A stretch of DNA of 64,000 nucleotides from Natranaerobius thermophilus JW/NM-WN-LF (GTDB taxonomy: Bacteria > Bacillota > Natranaerobiia > Natranaerobiales > Natranaerobiaceae). The notes beneath the pieces were generated by a model, which worked only from the letters and a program-made list of their open reading frames with translations, was not told where the DNA came from and searched no databases. This document shows positions 17,151 to 45,375 of this stretch, one piece after another. The translations under genes were made by a program, and so were the position numbers. Where the stretch lies: positions 811,001 through 875,000 of the forward strand of contig NC_010718.1 in the NCBI RefSeq assembly GCF_000020005.1. The letters run 5' to 3'. Position 1 is the stretch's first letter. Each line of letters starts with the position of its first letter.

Positions 17151-17199
17151 CGAAAAAAGGTGTTTGGTTATTAACTGATATTAACGAGAGGTGATTTAT

Positions 17200-19221: not shown

Positions 19222-20533
19222 GCAATACAAAAAATACAAGGACTCTGGTATTGAATGGCTTGGAAAAGTTCCGAGTCACTGGGACATAAACCGGATGGAT
19301 GCTTATACAAAATATTACAAGAAAAGTATTGAACGAGAAGCACTTCGCGGAAAGACAGTTTTTTACTATAGTATTCCTGCAATTGAAGAAACAGGCGATG
19401 GTGTGGTAGAAGAAGGCTCAAACATTGATAGTAATAAATTACTACTTAAGGGAGAAGAATTACTGGTATCAAAGTTGAACCCAAGAAAAGGTAGAATAAT
19501 TCCTACTAAAGAAAAAGAAATGCCAATTATTTGCTCTTCAGAATTTGTTCCCCTGGTACCCCGCAATTGTAGTAGGGAATTTATTAGATATATATATCAG
19601 TCAGAACTAGTAAAACAAAAACTAAGTAGTGCTGTACAATCTGCTACTAATAGTCATCAAAGAGTTAACCCTAGAGATATATCAAAAATATATTTTGCGT
19701 TTCCAAGTAAAAGTGAACAGGATAATATAGTAAAATACTTAAATTCAAAAACATCTCAAATAGATTCCCTAATCAACAAAAAACAAAACCTCATCGAAAA
19801 ACTCCAAGAATACAAGCAATCCCTTATAACCCACACCGTCACCAAAGGACTTGACCCCAATGTAAAAATGAAAGATTCGGGTGTTGAATGGATAGGGGAA
19901 GTGCCGGAGCATTGGGAGATTTTAAAAGGGAAATATCTGCTAGATATTTATAACGGGTATCCTCCTGAAGAATTAAGTTTAAGTGCTAATGGTCAGGTGA
20001 AATATATTCAAGTGGATGACTTAAACACAGAAAATGATGAATTAGTAATAAAAGATTCTAAGTTAAAACTTAAAAATAAAAAGACAGAAGCATTAGATCA
20101 CCCAATTATATTGATACCTAAAAGAGGTGCTGCAATTTTTACAAATAAAGTCAAGATTTTAGTTGATAAAGGACTTATTGACTCTAATATAATGGGGTTA
20201 AAACCTAAGAAAAACTGTAATATACATTATTTAGTCTATATGATTAAGGCGAGGAAAGTAGATGATATTGCGGATACATCTACAATACCTCAAATTAACA
20301 ATAAGCATATTAACCCTCTACCACTAACTATACCACCCATCGAAGAACAAAATAAAATAGCAGAATATCTAGATGAAAAAGTTGATAATATAAATAATTG
20401 TATTCTTAATATAAAAGTAGCTATCCAAAAACTCAAAGAATACCGCCAATCCCTTATCACCCACGCAGTCACTGGCAAGATTGACGTCAGGGACTGGGCA
20501 GATGCAAAGGAAGGTGAAGATAATGTCTGTTGA
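19208..20533 (+). CDS. hsdS: Type I restriction-modification specificity subunit
   Basis: A 441-residue protein with two target-recognition domains, each opened by the same phrase: KDSGIEWLGKVPSHW near residue 9 and KDSGVEWIGEVPEHW near 222. Each is followed by a conserved helix (the SLITHTVTKGLDPN and SLITHAVTGKIDVR regions). The two halves read the two parts of a bipartite DNA site and position the HsdM subunits. GAAGGTG precedes the ATG. It overlaps hsdM by 14 bp and hsdR by 11 bp. Both domains look complete, so the system should have a defined specificity, which cannot be predicted by eye. Confidence 0.94.
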   Translation: MEKFKQYKKYKDSGIEWLGKVPSHWDINRMDAYTKYYKKSIEREALRGKTVFYYSIPAIEETGDGVVEEGSNIDSNKLLLKGEELLVSKLNPRKGRIIPTKEKEMPIICSSEFVPLVPRNCSREFIRYIYQSELVKQKLSSAVQSATNSHQRVNPRDISKIYFAFPSKSEQDNIVKYLNSKTSQIDSLINKKQNLIEKLQEYKQSLITHTVTKGLDPNVKMKDSGVEWIGEVPEHWEILKGKYLLDIYNGYPPEELSLSANGQVKYIQVDDLNTENDELVIKDSKLKLKNKKTEALDHPIILIPKRGAAIFTNKVKILVDKGLIDSNIMGLKPKKNCNIHYLVYMIKARKVDDIADTSTIPQINNKHINPLPLTIPPIEEQNKIAEYLDEKVDNINNCILNIKVAIQKLKEYRQSLITHAVTGKIDVRDWADAKEGEDNVC

Positions 20534-23525
20534 TCACAGTGAGATCTCCCTTGAAAAAACTATAGAATCTTATCTAATAAACCATGGTGGATATATTAAA
20601 GGTGACCCCTCTGAATTTGCTAGGGAAAAAGCACTATTTCCCAAAACCTTTATAGCATTCATCAAAGATACCCAACCAGATAAGTGGGAAAAACTAGAGA
20701 GAATGCACGGTGATCAAGTAGAAGAAAAAGTTATCTACCGTCTAACTAGAGAACTTTCACAGCGGGGAATGTTAGATGTACTGAGAAAAGGGATTACTGA
20801 TTTTGGTGTAAAACTAACAACAGCTTATTTTCCACCAGCCAGTGGATTAAATCCTGAAATACAAGAACTATATGATAAAAACAGGTTAACAGCTACCAGA
20901 CAAGTGAGATATTCTACTAAGAATGAAAACTCTTTAGATTTAGTGTTGAGCATTAATGGTTTACCAGTTGCAACAGCAGAGCTTAAAAACCCCTCCACCG
21001 GTCAGACATTCCAAGATGCAAAAAAACAATACAAAGAAGACCGTGACCCAAAAGAACCAATTTTCCAGTTTAAAAAACGAACCCTCGTTCATTTTGCTTT
21101 GGATACTGATGAAGTATATATGACAACAAAACTTGCAAAAGGGAATACTGTATTTCTCCCCTTTAACAAAGGAAAAGATGGCGGTAAAGGGAATCCTGAA
21201 AATCCTAATGGATACCGGACAGCTTATTTGTGGGAAGAAATATGGGAAAAAGATACCTGGATGAAGATTGTCTCCCGATTTATGAACTTAGAAGTTAAAA
21301 AAGAAGAAAAGGATGGCAAACAGATTACTAAGGAAAACATTATCTTTCCTAGATATCACCAATTAGAAGCAGTGTTTAATATAACAAATGATGCTCAAAA
21401 GAGAGGACCAGGTAAAAACTATTTAGTTCAACACTCCGCAGGAAGTGGAAAAAGTTTAACCATAGGGTGGCTTGCTCATCGATTATCAAATTTACATGAT
21501 GACAATAATGCTCCTGTCTTTAACAGTGTGATAGTTATTACCGATCGTGTTGTCCTTGATAAACAGCTTCAAGAAACTATATATCAGATTGACCATCAAC
21601 AGGGAGTAGTAGAGCGGATAGATAGACATTCATCTCAGTTAAAGGATGCCCTTGAAAAAGGAAAGAAAATAATAATCACCACACTGCAAAAATTCCCTGT
21701 GATATTAGATGAAATTAAAGGCTTGCCTGAAAGAAATTACGCGGTAATAGTAGATGAAGCCCACAGTTCACAAACCGGAAAATCCGCAAGAGCAGTCAGA
21801 GAAGTTCTATCTGCCGAAACATTAGAAGAGGCAGAACAAAGACAGCAGGACATAGAAGATGAATTTGATCCAGAAGAAGAAATTATAAAATCTATGAAAA
21901 AACAAGGCAAGCAGGAAAATCTTAGCTTTTTTGCATTCACAGCAACCCCAAAGGCTAAAACATTAGAAACCTTTGGCCATAAAGACAAAGAAGGGAAACC
22001 TGTTCCCTTTCATTTATATCCCATGAGACAAGCTATTGAAGAAGGGTTTATATTGGACGTATTGAAAAACTATACCACTTATAAAACCTATTTTAAACTG
22101 GCTAAAAGAATTGAAGATGATCCAAACTTAGATAAGAAAAAAGCAGCAAAAGAAGTAGCTAGATTTGTTAGCCTTCACCCGCACAATCTAGCGCAAAAAA
22201 CTGAAGTGATGATAGAACACTTCCGAAATGTAACTATGCACAAAATAAATGGTAAAGCTAAGGCAATGCTGGTGACAAGCTCTAGATTTCATGCACTAAG
22301 ATATAAATTTGAATTTGATAGATATTTAAAAGAAAACGGGTACGATGATATTAAAACCCTAGTTGCTTTTTCAGGAACAGTACAAGACCCTGAACTTGAT
22401 AAAGAATATACAGAATCGGAAATTAATCAGATAAGAGAATCTGAACTTCCACAAAAATTTGATACTGATGGATACCGTCTTCTTTTAGTTGCAGACAAAT
22501 ATCAAACTGGATTTGATCAGCCATTACTTCATACAATGTACGTTGATAAAAAACTGACTGATGTTAAAGCAGTCCAAACCCTGTCCAGGTTAAATCGCCC
22601 TTATCCAGGTAAAGATGATACATTTGTCCTCGATTTTGTCAATGAAGCGGATGATATTAAAAAAGCCTTTCAACCTTTTTATGAGCAAACAACCGTTGAA
22701 GAAACCACTGATCCCAATCTGCTTTATGACTTGAAGTATAAGCTGGATGATTTTCAGGTATATTGGCAAACTGAGATAGATAATTTCTGTAAAGTATTCT
22801 TTAAACCACCAGAAAAGCAAAATAAAGATAAAGATGCAGCTATGTTAAATTCATATGTAGATCCTGCGGTAGATAGATTTAAAAATAAACCAAAAGAAGA
22901 GCAGGAGGAATTTCACAAGACACTTACAAGCTTTATCAGAACTTATGCTTTTTTACTGCAAATCATCCCCTTTCAAGACCAAGAGCTTCATAAACTAGAT
23001 GCTTATGGACGATTTTTACTAACTAAACTACCTAGTCAAAGAAACCATGAAGATACAGTAGAATTAAATAATGAAATTGATTTAGAATATTACAGGTTAG
23101 AAAAAACCGGTGACCACAGTGTTGTATTGGAAGAACAAGGTGAATATGGAGTTAGGGGTACCACCCATGCAGGAACAGGACAAAATAAAGACAAAGAAGA
23201 TGAAAAAGCTCCTTTGTCAGAGATTATAGAAATAATTAATGAACGATTTGGAACTGACTTCACAGAAAATGACTGGCTATTCTTTGAACAAATTAAAAAT
23301 GACATGTTAGAGGATGAGGAATTAGAGAAGCATGCACGGAACAATAGGAAAGATAATTTTTACTACGCTTTTAAAGACCACTTTGATAAAAAGACTATAA
23401 AGAGAAGAACTCAGAATATGGAACTGTTTGCCATGTTGATGGATAATGAAGAATTCAAAGAAAAGGTAATGGACTTCTATATGAATGAAGTATTTAAGGA
23501 ATTTAAAAATAAAGCTAGTTCATAA
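20523..23525 (+). CDS. hsdR: Type I restriction endonuclease / translocase subunit
   Basis: A 1000-residue protein that pulls DNA through the complex and cuts unmodified DNA. The N-terminal nuclease has D in SLDLVLSINGL followed by AELKN, the D...ExK pattern. The motor has HSAGSGKSL (Walker A), VDEAH (Walker B) and FTATPKAKT, with the second RecA-like lobe around VADKYQTGFDQP and LSRLNR. The C-terminal helical part binds the core enzyme. The ATG at 20523 has GGAAGGTG about 7 nt upstream; an in-frame start at 20481 lacks a site. A terminator follows. With hsdM and hsdS intact this is a complete type I system. Confidence 0.95.
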   Translation: MSVDHSEISLEKTIESYLINHGGYIKGDPSEFAREKALFPKTFIAFIKDTQPDKWEKLERMHGDQVEEKVIYRLTRELSQRGMLDVLRKGITDFGVKLTTAYFPPASGLNPEIQELYDKNRLTATRQVRYSTKNENSLDLVLSINGLPVATAELKNPSTGQTFQDAKKQYKEDRDPKEPIFQFKKRTLVHFALDTDEVYMTTKLAKGNTVFLPFNKGKDGGKGNPENPNGYRTAYLWEEIWEKDTWMKIVSRFMNLEVKKEEKDGKQITKENIIFPRYHQLEAVFNITNDAQKRGPGKNYLVQHSAGSGKSLTIGWLAHRLSNLHDDNNAPVFNSVIVITDRVVLDKQLQETIYQIDHQQGVVERIDRHSSQLKDALEKGKKIIITTLQKFPVILDEIKGLPERNYAVIVDEAHSSQTGKSARAVREVLSAETLEEAEQRQQDIEDEFDPEEEIIKSMKKQGKQENLSFFAFTATPKAKTLETFGHKDKEGKPVPFHLYPMRQAIEEGFILDVLKNYTTYKTYFKLAKRIEDDPNLDKKKAAKEVARFVSLHPHNLAQKTEVMIEHFRNVTMHKINGKAKAMLVTSSRFHALRYKFEFDRYLKENGYDDIKTLVAFSGTVQDPELDKEYTESEINQIRESELPQKFDTDGYRLLLVADKYQTGFDQPLLHTMYVDKKLTDVKAVQTLSRLNRPYPGKDDTFVLDFVNEADDIKKAFQPFYEQTTVEETTDPNLLYDLKYKLDDFQVYWQTEIDNFCKVFFKPPEKQNKDKDAAMLNSYVDPAVDRFKNKPKEEQEEFHKTLTSFIRTYAFLLQIIPFQDQELHKLDAYGRFLLTKLPSQRNHEDTVELNNEIDLEYYRLEKTGDHSVVLEEQGEYGVRGTTHAGTGQNKDKEDEKAPLSEIIEIINERFGTDFTENDWLFFEQIKNDMLEDEELEKHARNNRKDNFYYAFKDHFDKKTIKRRTQNMELFAMLMDNEEFKEKVMDFYMNEVFKEFKNKASS

Positions 23526-25139: not shown

Positions 25140-26180
25140 TACTTAACTTTTTGGTGTCCAAAATTTTGACCTAAGTCCAGGTATCTGAAGGTTTTAATAT
25201 TTATATTAAACTTTTGTTAATGTTAATCGAGATGGAAAATTCTAATAAAGAAAAAGAAAAGGGCAGTGATAATTTAGATTTCGAGCTTGTACTATTACGT
25301 TTACATATTAAAAATAAGAAGAATATAAAAGAAAAATTTTTGACACTAAAGCAATTAGAAATTCTAGATGAAATTATTGAAGAATTTATCTGGTTAGATA
25401 TTTTGAAATCGGATTTAAGAGATGGGTTATTTTCAATAGATGAATTGTTAGAAATTAAGGAATTTATAAAAAGTATGATTAAAACCTATTCAAATCAGTT
25501 TATAACTATAGAAGATCAAGTAACTATTAAAGATTTATTAGATGATAACATCTTTCAATTCAAGCTAACTGAAAATAACAAGGATACTGAAATTAAAACT
25601 ATAAGTCCTAAGTCTCCAGTTGGTCAAAAACTAATTGGTAAAACATATGGCGAAATAATTGAAGTTGAAGTATCTACTATAGGGAAGAAAGAACTTAATA
25701 AATATAAGGTTTTAGATTATGTTAAGAGTTCATATGTAGAAGAAATAAAGTTTAATATTATACAAGAAGAATTTTTTTATATTGAGGATTGGCCTAAAGA
25801 TGAGTTTGATGTTTCTAGCTTTGGAATTAATAATAATTGTTATGAAAAAATGGAAGAAACTCCTTTATATAAATGTGGCTACAAAATTTGGGAGAATGGA
25901 AGAGAACTTTCAGAAAATGAACGATGGGATCGTCTGATAAATAATGCGATACCGAAACTTGGCACAAAAGAAGTTGTAGGTACGATAATGAGTCATATCC
26001 GTTCGCGTAGTATAAGCGGAGAGGAAAAATATAAAAATGCTATAAATAAATGGAAGCTTGATTTAAGTAAACTCCAAAATGAATTTAATAAGAAGAAGAT
26101 TGATTTATTCAAATCAAAGAAAAGTATATAATTTAACTTAGAAGATTTGGAGGGCAATTTTAAAAGAAGAGGTGGATCTG

Positions 26181-27020
26181 ATGAACCCGAAAACAATACA
26201 AATTTTTTTACCGGATGGCTCTCCCAGTAGTATTAGGATAGCTGAAATAACTAGTAGTATAGTTAAATTGGTATCTGTACCTCGAAATAAACTTGATGCT
26301 GCAGATAAACGTGATGAACTAAAAAATGTGGGTGTATATTTTCTGATCGGTGATGACGAAGAAAAAGCTAAGCCGATTGTATATATTGGTGAAGCAGAAG
26401 ATTGCTATAAAAGATTAAAACAACATAATAAGAATAAAGATAATTGGAATAATGCAGTTGTAGCTATTTCTAAAACAAATAATTTCACAAAGGCTCATGT
26501 GAAATATTTAGAGTATTACTGTTATGTGAAAGCTCACGAAATAGGTCGGTGGGAAATAGATAATTCAAATATTCCTACAAAACCTTTTGTACCCGAACCA
26601 ATGGAAGCTGACCTTTTTGACGTTTATAATACTATTAAAATCTTGCTTTCTACTCTTGGTTTCCCGATTTTTGAAGAAATACCTAAATCTAAAAGGAAGA
26701 GCGTATTTGTATGTAAAGGAAAAGAAGCATACGCTGAAGGTGATTACATAGATGAAGGATTTGTAGTTTATAAAGGTTCGAAGGCTAATTTAACAGAAAC
26801 TCAGAGTGCAGGTGAATGGTTGATAAACTTAAGAAAACAGTTAATTGAAAGTGGTGTTCTTGTAAAAAGGGATGAGATCTATGAATTTTCATCAAATTAT
26901 ATTTTTAGTTCTCCTAGCGCCGCAGCTGCCACGGTTTTGGCACGGAGAGCTAATGGGTGGACGGAATGGAAGAATAAAGATGGTAAAACTCTTGATGATG
27001 TGAAGAGAAAAAGTGATTAA
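26181..27020 (+). CDS. GIY-YIG nuclease-family protein with DUF4357
   Basis: A 279-residue protein. A GIY-YIG-type domain spans about residues 45-135: VGVYFLIGDD for the GIY part, PIVYIGEAEDCYKRLKQHN for the YIG part with its following arginine, and a distal conserved E in KYLEYYCY. A DUF4357 domain is at the C-terminus (about 185-275, YAEGDYIDEGFVVYKGS and the WTEWKNKDGKTL ending). Such proteins are common in restriction islands and are presumed DNA nucleases or DNA-binding accessories. AGAGGTG lies 6 nt before the ATG at 26181; the GTG at 26172 is inside that site. Confidence 0.85.
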   Translation: MNPKTIQIFLPDGSPSSIRIAEITSSIVKLVSVPRNKLDAADKRDELKNVGVYFLIGDDEEKAKPIVYIGEAEDCYKRLKQHNKNKDNWNNAVVAISKTNNFTKAHVKYLEYYCYVKAHEIGRWEIDNSNIPTKPFVPEPMEADLFDVYNTIKILLSTLGFPIFEEIPKSKRKSVFVCKGKEAYAEGDYIDEGFVVYKGSKANLTETQSAGEWLINLRKQLIESGVLVKRDEIYEFSSNYIFSSPSAAAATVLARRANGWTEWKNKDGKTLDDVKRKSD

Positions 27021-27783: not shown

Positions 27784-29458
27784 TTGAACGAAGCAATCAA
27801 AGAGGAAATAAGACAAAGTATTAACAATCTGGATTTCAACTTCTTCACAATGGAGCTAGAAAGAAGGGAAAATGCCGAAAGGGAAATGCGAGAACTAATA
27901 GAAAAGACTAATTTACTTCATGGAGGTATCTGGACAAGCGAGCACTTATGTGAATCCATTAAAATACAAAAGAAAAGTCCAAAACATAAACAATGTAGTG
28001 CTACCTAAATTAGTAGGTAATTATCAATACAATGTTTATTTCAAGGGATATAATAAATCAAAGGAAGATTTTATAGAGGAAAATCCAGAATATGGGGGTG
28101 GCTCAGGGCATCCTGGAGTAGATCTGGATAAGTTCTCTAACGATTTAGCTAACTTGTTAAATGCAGATGGCGATTCATTTCAAGAAGCTTATATTCAATT
28201 TAGTAAACATATTGGTGTTGGTAAGGCCATTATATCTGGCTATTTGCACTTATATGATCCTAATAAGTTTCCGTTAATAAATGGTGCGTCAATAAGTGGT
28301 ATTGAAAAATACATAGGTAAACAAGATCATCTGGCATTGAAAAACTATGCTGAAAAAGAGAGGAAAAGACAAAATATTACCCAGCCAATTAATAATTCTG
28401 ATTTTAGAAATTATCTTGCTTATTATAATTTGTTAAAGGAATTGTTAACTTTGGAAGAACTGAAAAACTATCATTATGTAGATGCTTTCCTCTGGTATGT
28501 CAGTAAATACGGCAAACCTGATGCTAGCGATGTTACTGTGCCAACAGGAGCAATAACCGAAGTAGTTGAAGAACAAGATGGGGAAGCTCCATTTGAACAA
28601 TCAATAAGTAATTTAACTGAGGAGATTAGTTTTGAGCAAGATGTTACAGAAGAAATCTTGAACTTACTTAAGTTGAAGAAAAATGTTGTATTCTACGGAC
28701 CACCAGGAACAGGAAAGACGTATGTAGCCAAAAAAATTGCTAATTACTTAGTTGGGGGTCAATCTAAAAATATTAAATTTATTCAATTTCATCAGAACTA
28801 TTCTTATGAGGATTTTATAGAAGGAATCAGACCTGAATCAAAGAAGGTAAATGGAACTCATATTATTGACTATCCTATTAGACCTGGAGTTTTCAAAACC
28901 TTATGTGACAATGCCAAAGAAAACCCTGAGGAAAAATATGTACTCATTATCGACGAATTTAACAGAGGTAATATTTCTAAAATATTTGGTGAACTGTTGT
29001 ATTCTTTAGAATACAGATCTGAAGATAATTCAATTCAACTACCTTATTCAAAGGAAAAAGAGTTATTTTATATACCCGATAATCTTTATATTATAGCCAC
29101 AATGAATACAGCGGATAAATCCTTGACTAGGATTGACTTTGCAATGAGAAGAAGATTTGCCTTCTATAAATTTAACGTAGATACTAAGATATTGATTAAT
29201 TGGGGTGAAAAACAAGGTCTAGTCATGGACTCTCTGGCAACTTTAATTGAAGATGTAAATAATGAAATAGGAGATGAAAATTTCTTTATTGGAATATCCT
29301 TTTTTATGAGAGAAGACTTACCCGAGACTATTAAATACATTTGGAAATCTGAAATTTATCCTTATTTAGAAGAGTACTTCATTGATGATATGAATTCAAA
29401 TATTGATAAATTCAAATGGGAAAATGTCAAGCATAGATTAAAGGAATTGATAGAATGA
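27784..29458 (+). pseudogene. mcrB: McrB-type GTPase, frameshifted near its N-terminus
   Basis: The only good ribosome site (AAAGGGGGTG) serves the TTG at 27784. That frame runs through a coiled coil and stops at 28008. The rest of the protein is in the +1 frame from about 27920 to 29458. It has a reader-like domain, Walker A GPPGTGKTYV, Walker-B-like IIDEFNRGN and the McrB signature MNTADKS. The GTPase half is intact. No ribosome site precedes the ATG at 27920. One extra base somewhere in 27920-28008 would explain the break, and a sequencing error or start-site ambiguity is possible. mcrC overlaps the end as ATGA. Confidence 0.72.
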
Positions 29459-30606
29459 TGGATAATACTCTAAAGCTAAAAGAGTATGATGAAAGTAATA
29501 AACTTCAATTAAGACAGGACCATCTGGATTTATTACTAGCTAAATTTGATAATCAACTAAAGGTCAAGTCAGCTATTGATAGATCAGGATATATTATATG
29601 TAGTAACAGTTATGTGGGAGTTTACGATTTAGATGACTTTAAAATCGTAGTAGAGCCTAAAATTGATACAGCCAATGTGTTTAAAATGCTTTCCTACTCT
29701 TATGATTTAATTTTTTGGCATGATGAAAAAGCACAATTCGCTAATATTCAGGAACTACTAGATTATTTAGTGTTGGTATTTTGTAATCAGGTTAATAGGC
29801 TTATCAAAAAAGGACTACATGCTGATTATGTACTTGTTAATGATAAATTAAGCTATGCTAAAGGGCGCATGAATGTTAGAGAATTGGTAGAAAAGCCTTG
29901 GGAAAAGCATAAAATTGATTGTTATTATGACAATTATCAAGTTGATATTTTAGAGAATCAAATTATAAAGTTTACAATTGATTTGTTAAAAAGGTATATC
30001 CAAAATAATTGGATAAGAAGATCACTGTTAAATACAAACAGATACTTTGATTCTGTTTCCTTAAGGCCTATTACAGTAGAAGATATTGATCAAGTTCAGT
30101 ACACCACATTAAATAAACATTACAAACACATTCATAACTTCTGTAAAATGTTTTTAGAGTTAATGGGTATAAATGAACAAATTGGAGAAACTCTTTTTAA
30201 TCAGTTTCACTTAGAAATGAACAACCTATATGAAAAATATGTAGGGAAATTATTAAAGGAAGAGTTACCAAATAATTATTGTGTTATTCTCCAGGATAAG
30301 CTTCACTTAGATGAATATGATCAGATAAGCATTAGGCCGGATATTGTAATTTATAATGATGTAAAGCCTTATTTAGTTATTGATACCAAGTATAAGGGTT
30401 CCAAAGATATTACGAATAATGACATTTACCAAATGGCAGCTTATATGAGTAAAACAAAAACAGATGGTGTATTATTGTATCCTGCTCAAGAAGTGGCTGA
30501 AACAGAATATATTATAAATGGTAGGAGCCTCAATATAAAAACTATTGACTTACAAAACCTTGATGATGGTGCAAAGGATTTAATAAACTGGATAATTAAA
30601 GTTTGA
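29455..30606 (+). CDS. mcrC: McrC nuclease subunit of McrBC-type type IV restriction
   Basis: A 383-residue McrC protein. The N-terminal beta-rich domain (about 1-100) contacts the McrB ring. The C-terminal part is a PD-(D/E)XK nuclease with RPDIVIYND followed by LVIDTKYKG (D...D-T-K). McrBC cuts DNA carrying modified cytosines, with McrB hydrolysing GTP and McrC cutting. The start codon overlaps the mcrB stop, the usual coupling for this pair. The gene is intact even though mcrB has an N-terminal lesion. Confidence 0.9.
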   Translation: MMDNTLKLKEYDESNKLQLRQDHLDLLLAKFDNQLKVKSAIDRSGYIICSNSYVGVYDLDDFKIVVEPKIDTANVFKMLSYSYDLIFWHDEKAQFANIQELLDYLVLVFCNQVNRLIKKGLHADYVLVNDKLSYAKGRMNVRELVEKPWEKHKIDCYYDNYQVDILENQIIKFTIDLLKRYIQNNWIRRSLLNTNRYFDSVSLRPITVEDIDQVQYTTLNKHYKHIHNFCKMFLELMGINEQIGETLFNQFHLEMNNLYEKYVGKLLKEELPNNYCVILQDKLHLDEYDQISIRPDIVIYNDVKPYLVIDTKYKGSKDITNNDIYQMAAYMSKTKTDGVLLYPAQEVAETEYIINGRSLNIKTIDLQNLDDGAKDLINWIIKV

Positions 30607-30627
30607 TATTTTGTGGAGGGGTGTATT

Positions 30628-31836
30628 ATGGTGGAAGATGGTGAAAAGATCTCTGGGCATCCTATATTAATAAAAAGCGATGAAAATATATCTGATATTG
30701 AAAAAATCTCTTTTACCAGTAAAGAATTTGATGAGAATTGGATTCAAGAACTTATTCGTAAATATCCAAATATTTTACCAGTTGCAGATATTGAAGCTAT
30801 ATTTGATCCATTAATACCTATTGGACGTGAAGTGCCAACTAATTCTGGAGCCATAGATAATATGTTTATAAATACAGAAGGTTACTTGACAATAGTTGAA
30901 ACTAAGCTTTGGAGGAATCCAGAAGCTAGACGGGAAGTAGTCGGTCAAATAATTGATTATGCCAAAGAAGTATGTGAATGGAGCTTTGATGAACTTAATG
31001 AAAGAGTTAAAGCATATAATTATAATTATCATGGAACGAGAGCTGGAATTATTGAAACCATTCGTAAACATAATCCTGAAATTAATGAATCAGAGCTCGT
31101 GGATAGTATTTGTAAAAATATGCAACGCGGAAGATTTTTATTACTTATTGTTGGGGATGGTATTAGAGAGAGTGTAGAAGAAATGGTGAATTATTTAAAC
31201 CAAACCCCAAGCATTTTATTTACATTAGCATTAGTGGAACTTCAAATGTACAAGCTAGATCAAAATGATTATTTAGTAATTCCTCAGATAATTACTAGAA
31301 CTCGAGAAATAACTCGAGCTGTAGTGAAAATAGATGGAGTATCTATTGATAAAGTAGAGGTAGATGTTGATACTAGTGAAGATAAATCGAAGAAAAAGAA
31401 AAGAAGGAAACTAGATGAAGAAGAGTTTTATGAAAAACTGAGTGAACATGTGAGTGAAGAAAACATAGATTTTGTAAAAAGAATTTTTGAAGATATGCAA
31501 AACTTAGGTTGTATTATTCAATGGCGACAAAGTAGTGCTATGATTAGATTGAAAGACCCCTCTGGCACGAAACAAAAATTTACAATGTTTGGTATTAGTA
31601 CTAATGGAGAAATTATAACTGGTTGGCTTTCAGACCAGTTGAGAAAGTACGGTATAAGCAGAAAACTAGCGACTTCTCATTTTTCTAAAATCGCAACATT
31701 ATTCGGGTATAATTTCGATGAAACTTTAGGACTGAAAGAAAGTATTAAATTGGATGAAATGAAAGATAATTATGAAGAGTTTATTGACATTGTATCTGAA
31801 ACCATCAATAAAATTGAAGAAATAATTGAAAGCTGA
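30628..31836 (+). CDS. DUF91/NucS-like PD-(D/E)XK nuclease-family protein
   Basis: A 402-residue protein. The core at about residues 60-115 reads GAIDNMFINTEGYLTIVETKLWRN in part, giving D, then E-T-K, then the helix EARREVVGQIIDYAKE, the classic order of a RecB/NucS-type nuclease fold. The rest is helical with a lysine-rich linker near 255 (KKKKRRK). GGAGGGG precedes the ATG at 30628. It follows mcrC by 21 bp and is probably in the same operon as an extra DNA-cleaving component. The precise family beyond DUF91-like is not certain. Confidence 0.75.
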   Translation: MVEDGEKISGHPILIKSDENISDIEKISFTSKEFDENWIQELIRKYPNILPVADIEAIFDPLIPIGREVPTNSGAIDNMFINTEGYLTIVETKLWRNPEARREVVGQIIDYAKEVCEWSFDELNERVKAYNYNYHGTRAGIIETIRKHNPEINESELVDSICKNMQRGRFLLLIVGDGIRESVEEMVNYLNQTPSILFTLALVELQMYKLDQNDYLVIPQIITRTREITRAVVKIDGVSIDKVEVDVDTSEDKSKKKKRRKLDEEEFYEKLSEHVSEENIDFVKRIFEDMQNLGCIIQWRQSSAMIRLKDPSGTKQKFTMFGISTNGEIITGWLSDQLRKYGISRKLATSHFSKIATLFGYNFDETLGLKESIKLDEMKDNYEEFIDIVSETINKIEEIIES

Positions 31837-31912: not shown

Positions 31913-32134
31913 ATGTGGGAACATATGACTTTTGACAAAACCATTCAAGGTCTAAATTTCTGTTTGCACAAATTTTCAGGATGGGCTGATGCAGTAAAAG
32001 GGAGCCTATATAATACTATACATACTAAAAAAACTCATGCAAATATGGGAAATTTATTTGGTTGGATATACGGTGATCAACCTAAAGAATTCAAAGAAGA
32101 AACTTGGAAGAGATATATTGAAAATTCTAATTAA
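31913..32134 (+). CDS. Small soluble protein ending the McrBC operon, unknown
   Basis: A 73-residue protein rich in Trp, His and Lys (FCLHKFSGWADAVKGS, GNLFGWIYGDQP). No known family recognised. GAGGTG lies 8 nt before the ATG at 31913 and a strong terminator begins at its stop codon, both consistent with a genuine gene at the end of an operon. Confidence 0.6.
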   Translation: MWEHMTFDKTIQGLNFCLHKFSGWADAVKGSLYNTIHTKKTHANMGNLFGWIYGDQPKEFKEETWKRYIENSN

Positions 32135-32165
32135 TAGCTCCTCATAAAACAGGAGCTATTTTTTT
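32133..32165 (+). terminator. Strong terminator closing the McrBC operon
   Basis: The stem AATAGCTCCT/AGGAGCTATT (32133-32142 with 32151-32160) has an 8-nt loop and is followed by further T. It overlaps the stop codon of the small gene. Confidence 0.88.
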
Positions 32166-32311: not shown

Positions 32312-32361
32312 AATAAAACAAGGCATTACCAAAAAATTGAAACTATGAATTGGGTGATTAC

Positions 32362-34809
32362 ATGGAACTAAATGTTGATCAGAAGCGGATTATTGAAACC
32401 AAACCTGGTGGACACATGTTGATAAGAGGAGTGGCAGGAAGCGGGAAAACAACTGTAGCTGTACATAAAATTCCTCATTTACTCAATCACTATTGCTCTC
32501 AGGATGACAAGGTCCTGGTTATTACCTTTACTAAAACTTTAATAAACTACATTAATTATATATACAACAATATAGAACATGAAACCACCTTATTTTCTAT
32601 GATAAATAGTGATCAAAATTTACAGATCTCAACTGCAGATAAAATCATCTTTCACCTTTATCGAAAGTATGAAGAAAAAGCAGGGATAGAAGAGCGAGAG
32701 ATCATACCTCAAAAAGAAAAATATAGATTATTAAACCAAGCTATTAAATATATTTCAAAGAAATATCCAGATCAGACTGTTGTTTCTGATAGGAATGTTA
32801 ATTTCTTAATTGATGAAATCGAGTGGATCAAAAGCAATAGATACACTGAGCTAGAAGTATATCAAAATGTAGATAGATTAGGTAGAAGCAGGAATATGGA
32901 AGAAGACGGTCCTCAAAGAATACTAAAAAACTCCACTAACAGAGAAGCCATATTTAAGACTATGGTGCTTTACGATGAATTGATGGACAAGGAAGGTTAT
33001 ACTGATTTTAAAAACATGGCCCTTCAGGTGTTGAAGGGAATAGAAGAAGGTGTAATCACTTGCGATAAATTCACTCATATATTGGTAGATGAAAGTCAAG
33101 ATCTCAGCAGAGTCCAGTTAGAAATTATTAAAAATATGTTTAAAAATGATAAGAATTACTCAAGTGTTATTTTCATAGCCGATACAGCTCAGAGTATTTA
33201 CCTCCAGTCCTGGCTGTCTCATCAAAGTTTTAAAAGTATTGGCTTTGATATGTCAGGTAGGGCCAGAACTTTATCTAAGAATTATAGGACAACAGCTGAA
33301 ATAGCTGAAGCAGCCTATAGTTTAATTGAAGATGATCAAACCATTGTTAATAACGAAAATTATGTAGAACCAGCAATTATTGATCGAAGGGGAGAACACC
33401 CTGTTTATAAGCAATTTGACTCTGATGGAGAAGAGTTAGATTATGTCTGTGATATGATTAAAAATAATTTATATAAACACTATGATCTCAAGGATATAGC
33501 CATAATAGCTAAAACCAGGAGACAATTAGAAAATGCTAAAAGATATCTACTAAATAATAAAGTTGATTGCAAGATTTTGAGTAAACGGGAAAATCATTTT
33601 TCCGATGATAAGGTTAAATTGTTGACCATGCATTCTATCAAAGGCCTGGAATATAAAGTTGTGTTCATTATTGGTATTAATGAAAATGTGATTCCATATA
33701 GCCCTGATGGTAATATTGACCTGGAACAAGAGTCCATGGAACGAAGGTTATTATATGTAGGAATGACCCGGGCCAAAGACAAGCTATTTTTAACCTCTAG
33801 TGGAAACCCCTCCAAATTCATTAATGATATCAATCCCAAGTACCTTAAACTAAATAATGAAAATGGGTTTTCCAGGTTTAATCATATTGGTATAGATAGT
33901 TACAGGTTTAAGGAAAAAATAGTGGATCTATACAGCCATGAAGAAGTGGTTAGACAATGGGTGATAGAAGAGCTAATCAATACTTTAAATTATCCCTTAG
34001 AACTAATAGACATAGAATATGAAATTCAATTGTTTTCAGCCACGGGATATGTAGATATCGTTGTCTTTAAAAATATGAAAGGAAAAATTGTCCCCTATAT
34101 ATTCATAGAGGCTAAACATTATAATACCAGCTTAGATAAACAAGATGTCAACCAGCTGAAATCGTACCTAGAAGGAAATAGTAGTGTAGAATATGGTATG
34201 CTGACAAATGGTAAAGATTTCAAGATACTAAAAAAGCAAAGTAAAAAGGGTGAATTTGAATATATTGATTCATTACCGGATTATCAAGGGGATATCAATA
34301 GTCTCTTTGAAGAATTTGAATATATAGACCTGAAGCGAGATAAAAAATACAAGCTCCATCGAAATCTAGAAGATAAATCATTGATTCATGTATATGATGA
34401 AAAAATAGATAATTCTCTAGAAGTTTCGGAGTATGTAAAACTAAATGTCTATGGAGAACTGACAGCTGGAGAGTTGAAATATGCTCATCAAGATATCCAG
34501 GGGGATGTGGAACTACCTAAAGAGATTGTACCTAATCCAGATAACTGTTTCATGTTAGAAGTGACGGGGGATAGTATGATTAATGCTGGTATCGATAAAG
34601 GTGACTATGTAATAGTCCAAAAACAAAATTATGCCGAAAACCTGGATATAGTAGTTGCGGTGATAGATCAAGAAGCGACCTTGAAGAAGTATAGCCGGAT
34701 GGGAGATACGATCCTGCTAATGCCTGAGAATAAGAACTATGAACCAATTATTGTTAGTGAGGAAGATTTAATAATTAATGGAAAGGTGATTGGGGTGTTG
34801 AAGACATAA
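32362..34809 (+). CDS. SF1 helicase - PD-(D/E)XK domain - LexA-type self-cleavage domain fusion
   Basis: An 815-residue protein. Residues 1-490 are a UvrD/Rep-like helicase: GVAGSGKTT at 23-31, LVDESQDLS, DTAQSIYL, TMHSIKGLEYK, VGMTRAKD. Residues about 530-620 are an HsdR_N-like nuclease fold with D565 and E583-A-K585. Residues about 690-815 match LexA/UmuD peptidases: cleavage-type Ala702-Gly703 (GELTAGEL), catalytic-type Ser738 (GDSM) and Lys775 (ATLKKY), then LLMPENKNYEPI. Ser and Lys are 37 residues apart, exactly as in E. coli LexA. No helix-turn-helix precedes the peptidase domain. This predicts a DNA-processing enzyme cut by RecA filaments during DNA damage. The ATG at 32362 follows TGGGTGA. 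A GmrSD-like gene lies 62 bp downstream. Confidence 0.9.
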   Translation: MELNVDQKRIIETKPGGHMLIRGVAGSGKTTVAVHKIPHLLNHYCSQDDKVLVITFTKTLINYINYIYNNIEHETTLFSMINSDQNLQISTADKIIFHLYRKYEEKAGIEEREIIPQKEKYRLLNQAIKYISKKYPDQTVVSDRNVNFLIDEIEWIKSNRYTELEVYQNVDRLGRSRNMEEDGPQRILKNSTNREAIFKTMVLYDELMDKEGYTDFKNMALQVLKGIEEGVITCDKFTHILVDESQDLSRVQLEIIKNMFKNDKNYSSVIFIADTAQSIYLQSWLSHQSFKSIGFDMSGRARTLSKNYRTTAEIAEAAYSLIEDDQTIVNNENYVEPAIIDRRGEHPVYKQFDSDGEELDYVCDMIKNNLYKHYDLKDIAIIAKTRRQLENAKRYLLNNKVDCKILSKRENHFSDDKVKLLTMHSIKGLEYKVVFIIGINENVIPYSPDGNIDLEQESMERRLLYVGMTRAKDKLFLTSSGNPSKFINDINPKYLKLNNENGFSRFNHIGIDSYRFKEKIVDLYSHEEVVRQWVIEELINTLNYPLELIDIEYEIQLFSATGYVDIVVFKNMKGKIVPYIFIEAKHYNTSLDKQDVNQLKSYLEGNSSVEYGMLTNGKDFKILKKQSKKGEFEYIDSLPDYQGDINSLFEEFEYIDLKRDKKYKLHRNLEDKSLIHVYDEKIDNSLEVSEYVKLNVYGELTAGELKYAHQDIQGDVELPKEIVPNPDNCFMLEVTGDSMINAGIDKGDYVIVQKQNYAENLDIVVAVIDQEATLKKYSRMGDTILLMPENKNYEPIIVSEEDLIINGKVIGVLKT

Positions 34810-34871: not shown

Positions 34872-36629
34872 TTGGATAACTCTAATATTAAAGCCGGTGA
34901 AATTTATGTAAATGATCTTTTAGGAGAAAAATACCTGTTCAATATCCCAGATTATCAACGGCCTTTTTCATGGGAGAAAGAAAATTTTGAACAATTATGT
35001 GAGGATATACATAGTTTTATTGAACCAGTTTATGAAATTTTAAAAGAGAAAGATCACTATCAAGACGGTATTGAACCCTATTTTATAGGAAGTGTAATAC
35101 TATGCAACAATGAAGATAGCTCTGCTAGTTCTGGGATATATGATATTATTGATGGTCAACAGAGATTGACTTCATTTACTATATTAATGGCAGTTATGAG
35201 AGATTTAACGGAAAATAATGATGCAGAACAAGCTCTTCAAAGATATATTTATCAAAAAGGTAACGAATTTATAGGGACTAGGGAAAGAATAAAATTATCA
35301 GTTAGAGAGCGTGAATTTGATTTTTATAGAAATAACATTCTTACCGTTGATGCAACATGGGAACTACTTGAAATGGCTACAAGCGGTTTGACTGAACCCA
35401 AAATTCGTATGATAGAAGCTACAAAAGTGTTTCATAACTTTTTTAAAGATGAGGATGGTCAAGTTGACCAAGAGTACTTAGATGTTTTTATAAAGTATTT
35501 CTTGCAAAAGGTTGTTTTAGTTGTAGTTCGGACAGATTCTCTTTCTTCGGCATTTCGTCTTTTTAATGTTATTAACGCTCGAGGGTTACCGCTTACAAAC
35601 GCTGATTTATTAAAAAGTGAAAACTTAAGAGTCATTCCTTCTGAAAGAAGAGAGAAATATACTGAAAAATGGGAGAGTATAGAAGAGGAATTTGGTAGTG
35701 AAGATTTGGAAATGCTTATTAGATTTATAAGGTCTATAAAATTAAAAAAGAAAGCAGATAGAGCAGTCTCCGAAGAATTTAACAGGAAAGTTTTTCCTGA
35801 AAACCCCAATTTAAAAGGGGAACACTTTATTGATTATTTAGAATTAATTAGTGACTTATATGGAAGAAGAATTTTGGATGGCAACCTTAGTTCTATGGAC
35901 GTACGCAAAAATGCTTATTTCTATAATTTGATTTCTATCATGAAAAACTTCCTTCCATTTGATGATTGGATGACAGCTCTTATAAAATTTGATGAGACCT
36001 ATCAAGATGAGGACAAACTTTATGAATTTTTAATAAAGTATGAGAAGAAAATAGTCGTCGATTGGATTACGCGCTTATCTTTTACTGAGCGACTCACTAG
36101 AATTTACAAAGTGATAGAATTAATAGAAGAATTCCCTAATGATCCTAATACAATTTTGAGACACTCTTTATTAAACCAGGATGTATCTAATCAAAAAGAT
36201 GCATTCAAAGACTCGTTAAATGATATTAATTTTTACAAAATTGGTAGATATCAAATCTCTAAATATGTTCTCCTACGACTAGACATGGAATCGCGAGATA
36301 ACAATAGTTTAAGAGAATATATGAAAAATGTAAGTGTAGAACATATATTACCCAGAAATCCCCGGGAAAGCTATTGGTTGGACCGTTTTTCTCAAAACGA
36401 TAGAATAGAATGGACCAATAGATTAGGCAATTTAGTCCTATTAGAAGGTAGAAAAAATTCTAAAGCCAGTAATAAAGCCTTTTATAATAAAGTTAATGAA
36501 TACTTTGAGAAAAAGAGTGACTTTCATATCACAAATGAATTACAAGATTATACAGACTGGACGCTCGATAAATTAGAGAATAGACATAAGCAATTAATTG
36601 ATAGGGCTCTTGATATCTGGGTTCATTAA
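34872..36629 (+). CDS. GmrSD-like DUF262-DUF1524 protein
   Basis: A 585-residue single-chain protein. The N-terminal DUF262 domain (ParB/Srx-like NTPase-type fold) has IPDYQRPFSW at about 24-33 and DGQQR at 94-98. The C-terminal DUF1524 HNH-like nuclease has VEHILPRNP near 490 and the NRLGNLVLLEGR...NSKASN segment. GmrSD enzymes cut glucosylated or otherwise modified phage DNA. The TTG start follows GGAGAAGGGAGAG. Only 62 bp separate it from the helicase-LexA gene and no terminator lies between, so the two are probably one operon. A terminator follows about 165 bp downstream. Confidence 0.87.
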   Translation: MDNSNIKAGEIYVNDLLGEKYLFNIPDYQRPFSWEKENFEQLCEDIHSFIEPVYEILKEKDHYQDGIEPYFIGSVILCNNEDSSASSGIYDIIDGQQRLTSFTILMAVMRDLTENNDAEQALQRYIYQKGNEFIGTRERIKLSVREREFDFYRNNILTVDATWELLEMATSGLTEPKIRMIEATKVFHNFFKDEDGQVDQEYLDVFIKYFLQKVVLVVVRTDSLSSAFRLFNVINARGLPLTNADLLKSENLRVIPSERREKYTEKWESIEEEFGSEDLEMLIRFIRSIKLKKKADRAVSEEFNRKVFPENPNLKGEHFIDYLELISDLYGRRILDGNLSSMDVRKNAYFYNLISIMKNFLPFDDWMTALIKFDETYQDEDKLYEFLIKYEKKIVVDWITRLSFTERLTRIYKVIELIEEFPNDPNTILRHSLLNQDVSNQKDAFKDSLNDINFYKIGRYQISKYVLLRLDMESRDNNSLREYMKNVSVEHILPRNPRESYWLDRFSQNDRIEWTNRLGNLVLLEGRKNSKASNKAFYNKVNEYFEKKSDFHITNELQDYTDWTLDKLENRHKQLIDRALDIWVH

Positions 36630-36901: not shown

Positions 36902-36936
36902 AATAAAAAATTAATTTATTATTAGAGGTGTCTACC

Positions 36937-38934
36937 GTGTCTAGCAAATATGATATTTATTGGAAAAAAAGAATAAATGATATAGCAAAGTTAATTCAAG
37001 AAGCTAAAAAATTTAGATATAGCAGTAAATTAAGTGTAAATGATTTAGTAAACTACGGAAAAAGAAAAAATTGGTATGGCGTAGTTGAAGTCCATCAGGA
37101 AGGAGTTAATAAGGGAGAAATGGCTCATGCAAGGTCGCTTGGTAATATTGTTTATGATGAGCTTAATTATATTTTGGATGATAAAACTCTAAAGTTAACT
37201 GTAACTTCAGATTTACAGCTTATGATAGAATTAGTAATAGCAGCGAATACAAAAGTTAGTAAGGGACCAGGTGAATTTAATTGTGAAAATAATGATCAGA
37301 TTCAAGAGGACTATCAACAAAAAGCTTATCAAACAAAAGAAGAAATCCAAGTAAACCAAAATAAGGTTGTAGATATATTTAAAGATATACCTTGGGATGT
37401 TTGGGAGTGTATAGTGAAAGTTGAACCAGAGTGGGTGAACATGATTGATTTACTGAGATATTATGATTTTGGCACTTTTTCAACCTTAATGGTTGTTGCT
37501 GGTTTAAATGATTTTCAGTTGAAAGGAAAAGCAGAAAAAGCTTATTGGATGCCATTAAGGGAACAAATTACAAATACTTCTATTCCTTCTACACCATATC
37601 AGTTAGCTAAAACCTTAGAACCCTTTTACCGAAAAGAACGACATGGTCAATTAAAGATTGAACGACTACACAAGTTCTTAAACAGTAATTTAGCCAACTT
37701 ATTATGGAATAATCAAGCACAGAATGTGGCTAAAATTTTACCTTATATTTGGCGGGAATTAGCTAAAACCATGAATCAAGATTATAATGCAAAAACTATT
37801 GTTTTTGCTATGAAGTGCTTAGGTTTAAGCTTATTAATGGTAGGAGAAAATGGTTTTGATTTTGCTAGGGTTCCTATTCCTGTAGATATACGAGTCTTAA
37901 AACTAACTAAAAATCTTGGACTCTGTAAAGAATGCAATGAATCAGAAGTTCAACGAATTTGGAGTGATGCCCTTAAGCAGTTAAGGAACTACTACCCAGA
38001 AATAACAATGATACATTTGGATAGCTTAGTTTGGCAAATTGCTTCACTTGATAAAGACCAGCTTAAGACTTATTTTGAAGATCTTGGGATTCTGAAAGTA
38101 GCAAATAATTTGTTAGCATTTCAAGGGATGTCTAACTTGACTGAAAATAATTACAAAATCATAAGTAATCATAAAACAATAGAAGCGCCAAAATTAAGCC
38201 AAAATAAGATTTTTAAAAACTTTAATCAGAAAGAAAATATTGTCTGTGTAATTCCCTGTTGCAAGAGTAAAAAACCATCTGGAGATCTTGTTAAACCTGA
38301 AAGGTCTATTAAGCCGCAAGATATTCCAGAGACTTGGGGACAACTTCGAAATGGTAGAAAAGGCATGGAATATAGTATTGATTTTGGTACTTCTTTGACT
38401 ACAGCAATTCATTTATATACCGGACACTTTTATAAACCTTTATTTTCTATAAAAGAACAGATTATAAATAAAATCCAAAAAGGCGAGATAAGTATTTTAA
38501 TTATATCAGCTGGTTATGGAATTTTGAATGCACTTGAACCTATTCATAATTATGATGAACTAATGAAAGGAAGAGTGGCTTCATGGTGGAAAAAAAATAG
38601 ATTAGAAAACGTATTATCAGAATATTTATTAAAAAAACAACCAGATAAAGTATACGGATTCTTTGCAGGGGGAGAAAATTGGAATTTTAACTCTTCTAGC
38701 TACAGATTTTTCTATACGGAAGGGGTTAAAATTGCGCTAAGAAAAGGTTTAAAATCAGATGTAGGTTGTTTTTACAGAAAAGAGGGAATGGGAGCTTCAT
38801 CAATTTTAGGTGTCTTAGGACATACAATGAAAAAATTTTTAGAATATGAATTTGATGACAATTTTGTTAAGGATGTCATGCAGCATGATAGGAAAGAGAA
38901 AGGAATCGTTATAGGTTATCGCCCTTTTGTATAA
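36937..38934 (+). CDS. AGOG-like DNA glycosylase/lyase fused to a YaaA/DUF6884-like domain
   Basis: A 665-residue protein. The middle (about 150-400) resembles archaeal AGOG 8-oxoguanine glycosylases of the HhH-GPD superfamily: K293 in TIVFAMKCLG as the candidate Schiff-base lysine, D317 in IPIPVDIRVLKLT, then IHLDSLVWQIA. The C-terminal part (about 435-600) resembles YaaA/DUF6884: IPCCKSKKP, AIHLYTGHFYKPL, ISAGYGILNALEPIHNYDEL. The N-terminal 100 residues are unassigned. Glycosylases that remove modified bases are a known type of phage defence, so this may detect altered guanine or other bases. The GTG at 36937 follows GAGGTG; another GTG at 36928 lies within it. Confidence 0.78.
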   Translation: MSSKYDIYWKKRINDIAKLIQEAKKFRYSSKLSVNDLVNYGKRKNWYGVVEVHQEGVNKGEMAHARSLGNIVYDELNYILDDKTLKLTVTSDLQLMIELVIAANTKVSKGPGEFNCENNDQIQEDYQQKAYQTKEEIQVNQNKVVDIFKDIPWDVWECIVKVEPEWVNMIDLLRYYDFGTFSTLMVVAGLNDFQLKGKAEKAYWMPLREQITNTSIPSTPYQLAKTLEPFYRKERHGQLKIERLHKFLNSNLANLLWNNQAQNVAKILPYIWRELAKTMNQDYNAKTIVFAMKCLGLSLLMVGENGFDFARVPIPVDIRVLKLTKNLGLCKECNESEVQRIWSDALKQLRNYYPEITMIHLDSLVWQIASLDKDQLKTYFEDLGILKVANNLLAFQGMSNLTENNYKIISNHKTIEAPKLSQNKIFKNFNQKENIVCVIPCCKSKKPSGDLVKPERSIKPQDIPETWGQLRNGRKGMEYSIDFGTSLTTAIHLYTGHFYKPLFSIKEQIINKIQKGEISILIISAGYGILNALEPIHNYDELMKGRVASWWKKNRLENVLSEYLLKKQPDKVYGFFAGGENWNFNSSSYRFFYTEGVKIALRKGLKSDVGCFYRKEGMGASSILGVLGHTMKKFLEYEFDDNFVKDVMQHDRKEKGIVIGYRPFV

Positions 38935-43929: not shown

Positions 43930-44093
43930 AACACAACTTCATCTCCCAAAATACCCTTTTTATACTGGAATTATATAACTACATACTGAATCTTTGATTC
44001 AGTGGTGGGATGAAGTGCTAATTTTTTGTGACATAATAGAACTTATGTTCGGTATGTGGTATAATATAGATATAGCCCAAAGAGAGGTTATTT

Positions 44094-44264: not shown

Positions 44265-45375
44265 CTGTTAAAGGCATATAATTATCGACTATACCCAAAT
44301 GAAATACAGAAAGAACAATTAGCTAAAACTTTCGGGTGTGTTAGATTTGTGTATAATCATTACTTAGACAAGAAAATAAATCTGTATGAAGACAAACAAG
44401 GATCTCTATCTAAAATAGATTGCAACAACCACTTAAACCGAGAACTAAAGAAAGAATTTATGTGGCTTAAGGAAGTAGATAAGTTTGCCTTGACTAACTC
44501 TATTTACAATCTTGATAATGCTTTTTAGACGAGTTAACAAAGGAAATGAAAAAGCTGGATTTCCTAAATTCAAGAGTAAGCACAGCAATAAATTCAGCTA
44601 TACAACCAATTTCACCAATAACAATATAGAAGTTGATTTTTCAGAAAATAGAATCAAACTACCTAAACTAAAGTGGGTAGAAGCAAAAGTACATAGAGAA
44701 TTTGATGGAAAAATAAAGTCAGCAACAATATCTCAAAACCCCAGTGGCAGATATTTTGTAAGTATTCTTGTGGATGTAGAGAAAAAGGCTTTGCCGAGAG
44801 TGGACAAGAATATAGGTTTTGACCTGGGTATTAGTGATTTTCTAATCGATAGCGATGGGAATAAGATACCTAATCCTAAAAACCTATCCAAATACGAAAG
44901 GAAATTAGCCAAACTACAAAGGCAACTATTCAAGAAGCAAAAAGGCAGTAACAATAGAAAAAAGATGAGAATTAAAATTGCAAGGCTTCATGAGAAGATT
45001 TTAGATGCCAGAAAAGACTTCTTACATAAATTGTCTTCACAGATTATAAACGAAAACCAAGTTATAGTTAGTGAAGACTTAAAAGTAAGTGGTATGATCA
45101 AAAATTCTAAACTAGCTAAATCAATATCAGATGTATCTTGGTCAGAACTTGCCAGACAACTAGAATATAAAGCTAACTGGTATTCTAGAACTTATATCCA
45201 GATAGATAGATTTTTCCCATCAAGTCAATTATGTTCTAGTTGTACAGCGAAGAACACAGAAGTTAAAAATCTTTCAATTAGAGAATGGACTTGTGATAAC
45301 TGTGGAACCCATCATGATAGGGACGTAAATTCTAGTAAAAACATTCTTTAAGAAGGACTTAGAACGTTAGCCTAA
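44265..45375 (+). pseudogene. tnpB: TnpB RNA-guided nuclease gene with frameshift and early stop
   Basis: The N-terminal part (LLKAYNYRLYPNEIQKEQLA) stops at 44526, just before RRVNKGNEKAGFPKFKSKHS, which continues in another frame. Several residues normally between AF and FFRRV are missing. The RuvC residues (D in FDLGISDF, E in VSEDLKVSGM, D in HDRDVNSSKN) and the zinc ribbon (CSSC, CDNC) remain. A TAA at 45349 replaces the codon after NIL; the frame then reads EGLRTLA to the natural stop. TnpB enzymes are transposon-encoded, RNA-guided nucleases; this copy looks inactive unless read through. Confidence 0.8.

Follow-up and report, generated by a model that had tools for sequence, protein, structure and literature searches.

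A Helicase-Nuclease Carrying a LexA-Type S24 Peptidase Domain in a Defense Island of Natranaerobius thermophilus: a Candidate RecA-Responsive Switch

The genome of Natranaerobius thermophilus JW/NM-WN-LF comprises 3,191,453 bp in three contigs, and the 64,000-nucleotide stretch analyzed here, called the window, corresponds to positions 811001 to 875000 of the 3,165,557-bp contig. A reading frame at window positions 32362 to 34809 on the forward strand begins with ATG at 32362, has a stop codon ending at 34809, and encodes 815 amino acids. Domain searches and full-length homologs define its architecture as UvrD helicase, HSDR_N_2 nuclease, linker, and LexA-type S24 peptidase. The ATG, not the TTG at 32350, is the likely start because homologs share the same M-x-L-N beginning. 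A terminator-like hairpin with a T tail upstream of the gene (32133 to 32165, forward strand) suggests that the gene has its own transcription start.

The gene is embedded in a defense island that reads, in order, type I restriction-modification genes (HsdM, HsdS, and HsdR-like; 17191 to 23525), a PDC-S14-like candidate defense protein (GIY-YIG/DUF4357; 26172 to 27020), an HNH protein, a type IV restriction pair of McrB-like AAA ATPase and McrC (27920 to 30606), a PDC-S11-like candidate defense protein (30613 to 31836), the helicase-nuclease-S24 gene, and a GmrSD (DUF262/DUF1524) restriction gene (34872 to 36629), all of these coordinates being on the forward strand. The GmrSD gene starts 63 bp downstream of the helicase-nuclease-S24 gene and is probably cotranscribed with it. 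Also in the island are a 305-residue protein with a GreA/GreB C-terminal domain adjoining PDC-S14 (25214 to 26131) and a 668-residue protein (36928 to 38934) that combines DUF7664, an AGOG-like N-glycosylase/DNA lyase stretch, and a YaaA-like tail and is possibly a base-modification-sensing defense protein.

Pfam returned four matches, all exceeding the curated cut-offs: UvrD-helicase (5.4e-26), UvrD_C (6.7e-27), HSDR_N_2 (2.6e-30; residues 526 to 639), and Peptidase_S24 (9.5e-31; residues 696 to 810). The three kinds of domain that an initial annotation had proposed from the sequence alone, beginning with UvrD-type helicase motifs, were thus all recovered. The SF1 UvrD/Rep helicase core spans residues 3 to 480 (32368 to 33801, forward strand), with Walker A at G23 to T31, the DExQD motif II at D243-E244-x-Q246-D247, and motifs IV to VI, of which motif VI (Y465-VGMTRA471) is invariant. 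The UvrD_C profile is matched mainly over its C-terminal part, which is consistent with a shortened 2B region. Next follows a PD-(D/E)xK-type nuclease domain of the HSDR_N_2 type (33937 to 34278, forward strand), recognized by Pfam and by the alignment, in which the D...ExK...Q core consists of D565, E583, K585, and Q598; the first three lie exactly where the initial annotation had placed them. A variable linker (residues 641 to 690; 34282 to 34431, forward strand), delimited by alignment and AlphaFold2 and containing a small predicted β-hairpin, leads to the LexA-type S24 domain (residues 696 to 810; 34447 to 34791, forward strand), which Pfam, NCBIfam, AlphaFold2, and Foldseek all identify.

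Within the S24 domain, position and conservation predict a scissile bond at Ala702|Gly703 (LTA|G; 34465 to 34470) and, as the catalytic dyad, Ser738 (34573 to 34575) and Lys775 (34684 to 34686), all on the forward strand and each at the residue number originally claimed. The fold, the dyad, and a small-residue/Gly bond together mark an S24 peptidase. Serine and lysine are separated by 37 residues, as claimed, which is also the S119-K156 spacing of Escherichia coli LexA. Cleavage at the predicted bond would release a C-terminal fragment of 113 residues (G703 to T815), one more than the 112 given initially. The protein tail scored 122.8 bits against the NCBIfam LexA equivalog model TIGR00498, above its cut-off of 110.95; the protein is nonetheless no LexA repressor, having a helicase in place of an N-terminal winged helix and matching only positions 78 to 200 of that 203-position model.

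Structure prediction gave the same picture of the peptidase. An AlphaFold2 model of residues 640 to 815 had a mean pLDDT of 81.6, with a core above 90, and Foldseek matched it best to solved LexA structures, including RecA-filament-bound LexA (8trg and 8gms, the latter with a TM score of 0.89 on the target), with UmuD and lambda CI also among the matches. The full-length model (mean pLDDT, 73.8) was good in the helicase, fair in S24, and poor in the nuclease (42 to 76), and its top Foldseek matches were PcrA/UvrD; it is too weak across the nuclease for the models to be informative on how the domains dock.

Full-length homologs share about 41 to 48% identity with the window protein. They include one in Clostridium sp. 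ZS2-4 and one on a plasmid of Ilyobacter polytropus, a member of another phylum (Fusobacteriota), which is annotated only as "S24 family peptidase." Matches occur in 17 of the 398 genomes sampled from the phylum of N. thermophilus and, with broken and S24-less copies counted, in 35 of 207 genomes (about 1 in 6) of a Clostridiaceae-like family. Broken copies were seen at four homologous loci (L031, L043, L082, and L132), while one genus (g128) carries copies at a near-constant position in five species. A phage origin was rejected: no phage record goes beyond the helicase or the S24 portion, and viral contigs gave helicase-like matches only.

About 50 homologs were aligned, 43 of them with S24 (one of these frame-broken upstream). 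Ser738 and Lys775 are kept in 43/43, and the scissile dipeptide is A-G in 39, S-G in 2, A-D in 1 (L129), and G-D in 1 (L028), so that [A/S]-G accounts for 41/43. Only L115, which has E583V and retains S24, departs from the D-E-K-Q nuclease core that the other 42 of the 43 keep intact. In the linker (residues 641 to 690), no alignment column is shared by 42 or more of the 43. Values of dN/dS for S24 are as low as those for the helicase (0.02 to 0.11 in most close pairs and 0.23 in one), and because pairwise helicase and S24 distances correlate (r = 0.89), the data point to a single old fusion behind the family. By these measures, purifying selection keeps the helicase, the nuclease core, and S24 joined across families of Bacillota and on one Fusobacteriota plasmid.

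A LexA-model search of the same genomes revealed a second family, of about 480 to 550 residues, in which a degenerate UvrD N-terminal half is joined through a β-linker to S24 (L169:1125-2561; L170:2458-3906, reverse strand; L171:2534-4168, reverse strand; L172:1704-3152; L173:2503-4071, reverse strand; and L174 to L203). This paralog is present in about half of the 207 Clostridiaceae-like genomes; the query found matches in 129 genomes, some of them through the full-length family. In the 34 aligned paralogs, motifs IV to VI and the nuclease are always missing and the motif II glutamate is missing from most; Ser, Lys, and A-G are invariant, and P3 to P1 read IAA in all 34. Paralog genes often occupy ordinary chromosomal sites, close to rimP/nusA-like or uppS/cdsA/dxr-like genes. 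For the two families pooled, Ser/Lys is conserved in 77/77 and a small-residue/Gly bond in 75/77. Random loss of the Ser/Lys pair, named in the initial annotation as a refuting observation, was found in neither family (43/43 and 34/34 retain it), and this invariance excludes chance. Since the nuclease-less paralogs retain Ser/Lys/A-G and L115 retains S24 beside a mutated nuclease, S24 does not serve the nuclease solely; the idea that it exists only for nuclease control was ruled out, and the switch, if these residues are a guide, is useful even without a nuclease. The paralog is likely an undescribed DNA damage-responsive protein.

Six intact homologs lack S24, and all six have a dead or missing nuclease: L076, L133, and L134 carry E583K, K585N, and Q598H, and L077, L079, and L135 have no nuclease at all. 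Conversely, among the roughly 50 aligned sequences, we found no homolog with an intact nuclease core and a readable C terminus that lacks S24. S24 and an active nuclease are associated in a Fisher test (5e-7); this is not counted as evidence by itself because the helicase tree resolves S24 absence into only two independent losses, each arising within S24-bearing lineages. A truncation that takes away the nuclease necessarily takes S24 with it, and a dead nuclease without S24 is kept only in the L076/L133/L134 clade. There, dN/dS in the leftover nuclease is 0.23 to 0.39 versus 0.10 to 0.20 in the helicase, indicating that selection on that remnant is relaxed. With two events, part of which truncation accounts for, the joint loss is suggestive. 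We considered whether the paralog acts in trans for the S24-less helicases; it is present in the first S24-less clade and absent from the second.

LexA-like regulation at the level of transcription was also evaluated. No LexA box was found in the stretch upstream of the window gene, and boxes with at most one mismatch precede 2 of 51 family genes (about 3 expected) and 0 of 11 genes for a NERD-HRDC partner described below, with no enrichment among the 34 paralogs, while the positive control detected a box at 10 of 15 lexA genes. SOS-box control was therefore rejected, and SOS probably does not govern transcription of the gene; because no SOS box lies upstream, control, if any, is probably posttranslational. 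An ordinary LexA is encoded elsewhere in the same genome. The window contains one perfect LexA-box-like palindrome, GAACTTATGTTC (44039 to 44050), about 460 bp upstream of an IS605 OrfB/TnpB-like gene (44512 to 45351); it may be a chance occurrence.

Restriction and defense genes are frequent neighbors of the family, in line with the defense association proposed initially. Members of a defense-neighbor panel lie within 1.5 kb at 20/49 family loci, compared with 2/30 paralog loci and 0/15 lexA loci, a somewhat circular contrast in that the panel was drawn from this family's own neighbors, each time leaving out the locus scored. GmrSD recurs near three homologs (L032, L113, and L117), PLD or MTES/ResIII(-DUF3427) restriction helicases stand beside homologs in 14 loci, and PDC-M26A and SIR2 proteins are further neighbors. 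An HNH_4 protein of about 390 residues, often accompanied by a small MazG-like protein, also recurs near the gene (L112:9928-11109, L114:5748-6908, L117:6239-7396, and L119:10021-11175). Obvious defense neighbors are absent at Ilyobacter and at some other loci (L118, L120, L121, L131, and L136), and the L028 copy sits in an ordinary neighborhood. By guilt by association, the family may have an antiphage role.

At 10 loci a NERD-HRDC gene (about 360 to 475 residues) lies 4 to 55 bp from the family gene on the same strand, upstream in L080, L122 to L128, and L130 and downstream in L003 (10468 to 11895); one further copy lies at 3.3 kb. The two genes probably form a two-gene system in one Clostridiaceae clade. 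A strict requirement for this partner was rejected, as the window has none. In L003 (8001 to 14979) the genes for helicase-nuclease-S24, NERD-HRDC, ZorA2, ZorB2, and ZorE2 run head to tail, no gap exceeding 17 bp, as though the module had merged into a Zorya II operon. This is the only homolog with a complete Zorya II set beside it; ZorA-ZorB-ZorE is absent from the window, and identity with Zorya II was rejected. RecA on single-stranded DNA (ssDNA) has been reported to be inhibitory for Zorya II (preprint PMC13192584).

The initial annotation knew of no named defense system with this architecture, and we likewise found none: no Pfam, NCBIfam, or PADLOC model covers the whole of it, and no description was found in the open-access literature searched. 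The family is real, conserved, and built from known parts, and it is apparently undescribed. The best PADLOC matches (1e-40 to 1e-37) were Gabija GajB and candidate C3a187 (NERD plus UvrD), which likewise place a UvrD-like helicase in defense islands, and the pairing of some members with a separate NERD protein recalls C3a187. However, GajB has neither a nuclease nor an S24 domain and works with the OLD nuclease GajA, and no GajA OLD-family gene is found beside the window gene (where McrC, PDC-S11, and GmrSD lie) or among the neighbor families identified, so this identity was rejected. AddAB, AdnAB, and RecBCD resemble the protein in having an SF1 motor followed by a PD-(D/E)xK-type nuclease, whereas here the nuclease is of the HSDR_N_2 type in a single 815-residue chain with S24; AddA and RecB models scored 67.5 of 707.65 and 66 of 696.05 bits, far below their cut-offs, and these identities too were rejected. 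Hachiman (HamAB/HamMAB) and AVAST also combine helicase and nuclease, and HamMAB and AVAST use proteolysis for control (PMC12799240), although there the components are separate proteins and a trypsin-like protease acts on a separate nuclease, whereas the window protein unites SF1 helicase, nuclease, and S24 in one chain. Type I HsdR, which is subject to ClpXP-mediated restriction alleviation, likewise has an HSDR_N-type nuclease with a motor, and for the window protein too we propose removal by Clp when host DNA is endangered; unlike HsdR, the window protein has an SF1 rather than SF2 motor and no HsdM/HsdS partner of its own, and its trigger would be self-cleavage. With LexA, its best structural match, and with UmuD and lambda CI it shares the S24 domain, Ser-Lys dyad, spacing, and Ala-Gly site; it differs in lacking a helix-turn-helix and an upstream LexA box, in carrying a helicase-nuclease cargo at its N terminus, and in the predominance of Ala at P2, where host LexAs have Thr.

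We tentatively interpret the protein, with a little less than even confidence, as an immune helicase-nuclease whose cis-acting LexA-type domain would let the RecA filament directly set the presence or activity of the nuclease without transcription, the degenerate-helicase-S24 family using the same switch for another output. The initial annotation had left open whether cleavage turns the enzyme on or off. The natural variants lean toward off, and the direction we prefer, although with less than even confidence, is that RecA-filament-triggered self-cleavage ends helicase-nuclease activity, a built-in restriction alleviation in a defense-associated enzyme whose target is probably invading DNA and which in some lineages would work with the NERD-HRDC partner. 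The S24 domain would keep the protein in working order, probably by dimerizing as LexA does; RecA filaments on host ssDNA, formed upon DNA damage or fork collapse, would induce cleavage at Ala702|Gly703; and the helicase-nuclease, having lost its S24 half, would expose a new C terminus (usually -IAA or -VAA in the family, -LTA here) that could be taken by Clp proteases, like the N-terminal half of LexA. Removal of the enzyme, timed by RecA, would spare chromosomal repair intermediates. Clp proteases remove the LexA N-terminal half after self-cleavage (PMC11442139), and hosts are protected from EcoKI by restriction alleviation through ClpXP (PMC11109961). Ala stands at P2 in 37/43 members of the family versus 5/30 host LexAs (Fisher test, 2e-9, relatedness ignored), so the end left by cleavage would usually be of the -AA kind. 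Such ends are of the kind favored by Clp proteases; against this argument, many LexA proteins share an -AA end, and the window copy (LTA) lacks it.

The preference for off has as its basis two natural variants and two loss events. L028 (11531 to 13963; G|D) and L129 (7466 to 9904, reverse strand; A|D) have Asp in place of Gly at P1', as does the G85D LexA mutant crystallized as 1jhf, which is presumably uncleavable and of the lexA3 type. Locked-off enzymes would be expected to decay, yet all enzyme motifs of both are intact, which is easier to understand if the uncut form is the working one; the two offer a natural test of which way the switch works. Were the nuclease dependent on S24, for example as a dimer interface, loss of S24 should be accompanied by nuclease loss and relaxed nuclease dN/dS, the pattern described above. 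That pattern would be just as likely if the nuclease became toxic once S24 was lost, as with a brake, and activation by release is a close rival: S24 would restrain the nuclease or helicase until RecA-triggered self-cleavage freed the active enzyme to kill the cell or the phage in an abortive infection. There are precedents in the nuclease proenzymes freed by partner proteases in Hachiman and AVAST (PMC12799240), and Hachiman is reported to sense DNA damage. We nonetheless consider release somewhat less likely than the off-switch: the two Gly-to-Asp variants should be locked off yet keep nuclease and helicase motifs complete, the linker beside S24, with no conserved column, is not suggestive of a rigid brake, and replication accidents would trigger suicide from a chromosomal gene that occurs in many species, about one in six Clostridiaceae genomes matching when broken and S24-less copies are counted. 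That S24 only dimerizes the enzyme or docks it on RecA filaments at ssDNA, self-cleavage being incidental, is quite improbable; the S24 part of LexA is indeed its dimerization and RecA-binding domain (PMC9578287), and the two members with a probably uncleavable site persist, but invariance of Ser/Lys across both families and near invariance of the small-residue/Gly bond would not be expected without peptidase function. Least likely, with only a slim chance by our estimate, is a housekeeping repair or recombination helicase-nuclease tuned by SOS. The resemblance of the helicase to PcrA/UvrD and AddA/RecB, copies in ordinary neighborhoods such as L028, and the near-constant position in the five g128 species speak for such a role, whereas the patchy spread, the several broken copies, the enrichment beside restriction genes relative to lexA or paralog loci, and the lack of a LexA box speak against it.

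Repressors and UmuD-type polymerase subunits are known to carry self-cleaving S24 domains; here such a domain is fused to a DNA-destroying enzyme in defense islands. If the cleavage is real, a single bond wires host DNA damage to immunity and offers a direct way to ask how immune nucleases spare the cell's own repair intermediates. The finding also points to an unstudied S24 paralog in about half of Clostridiaceae genomes.
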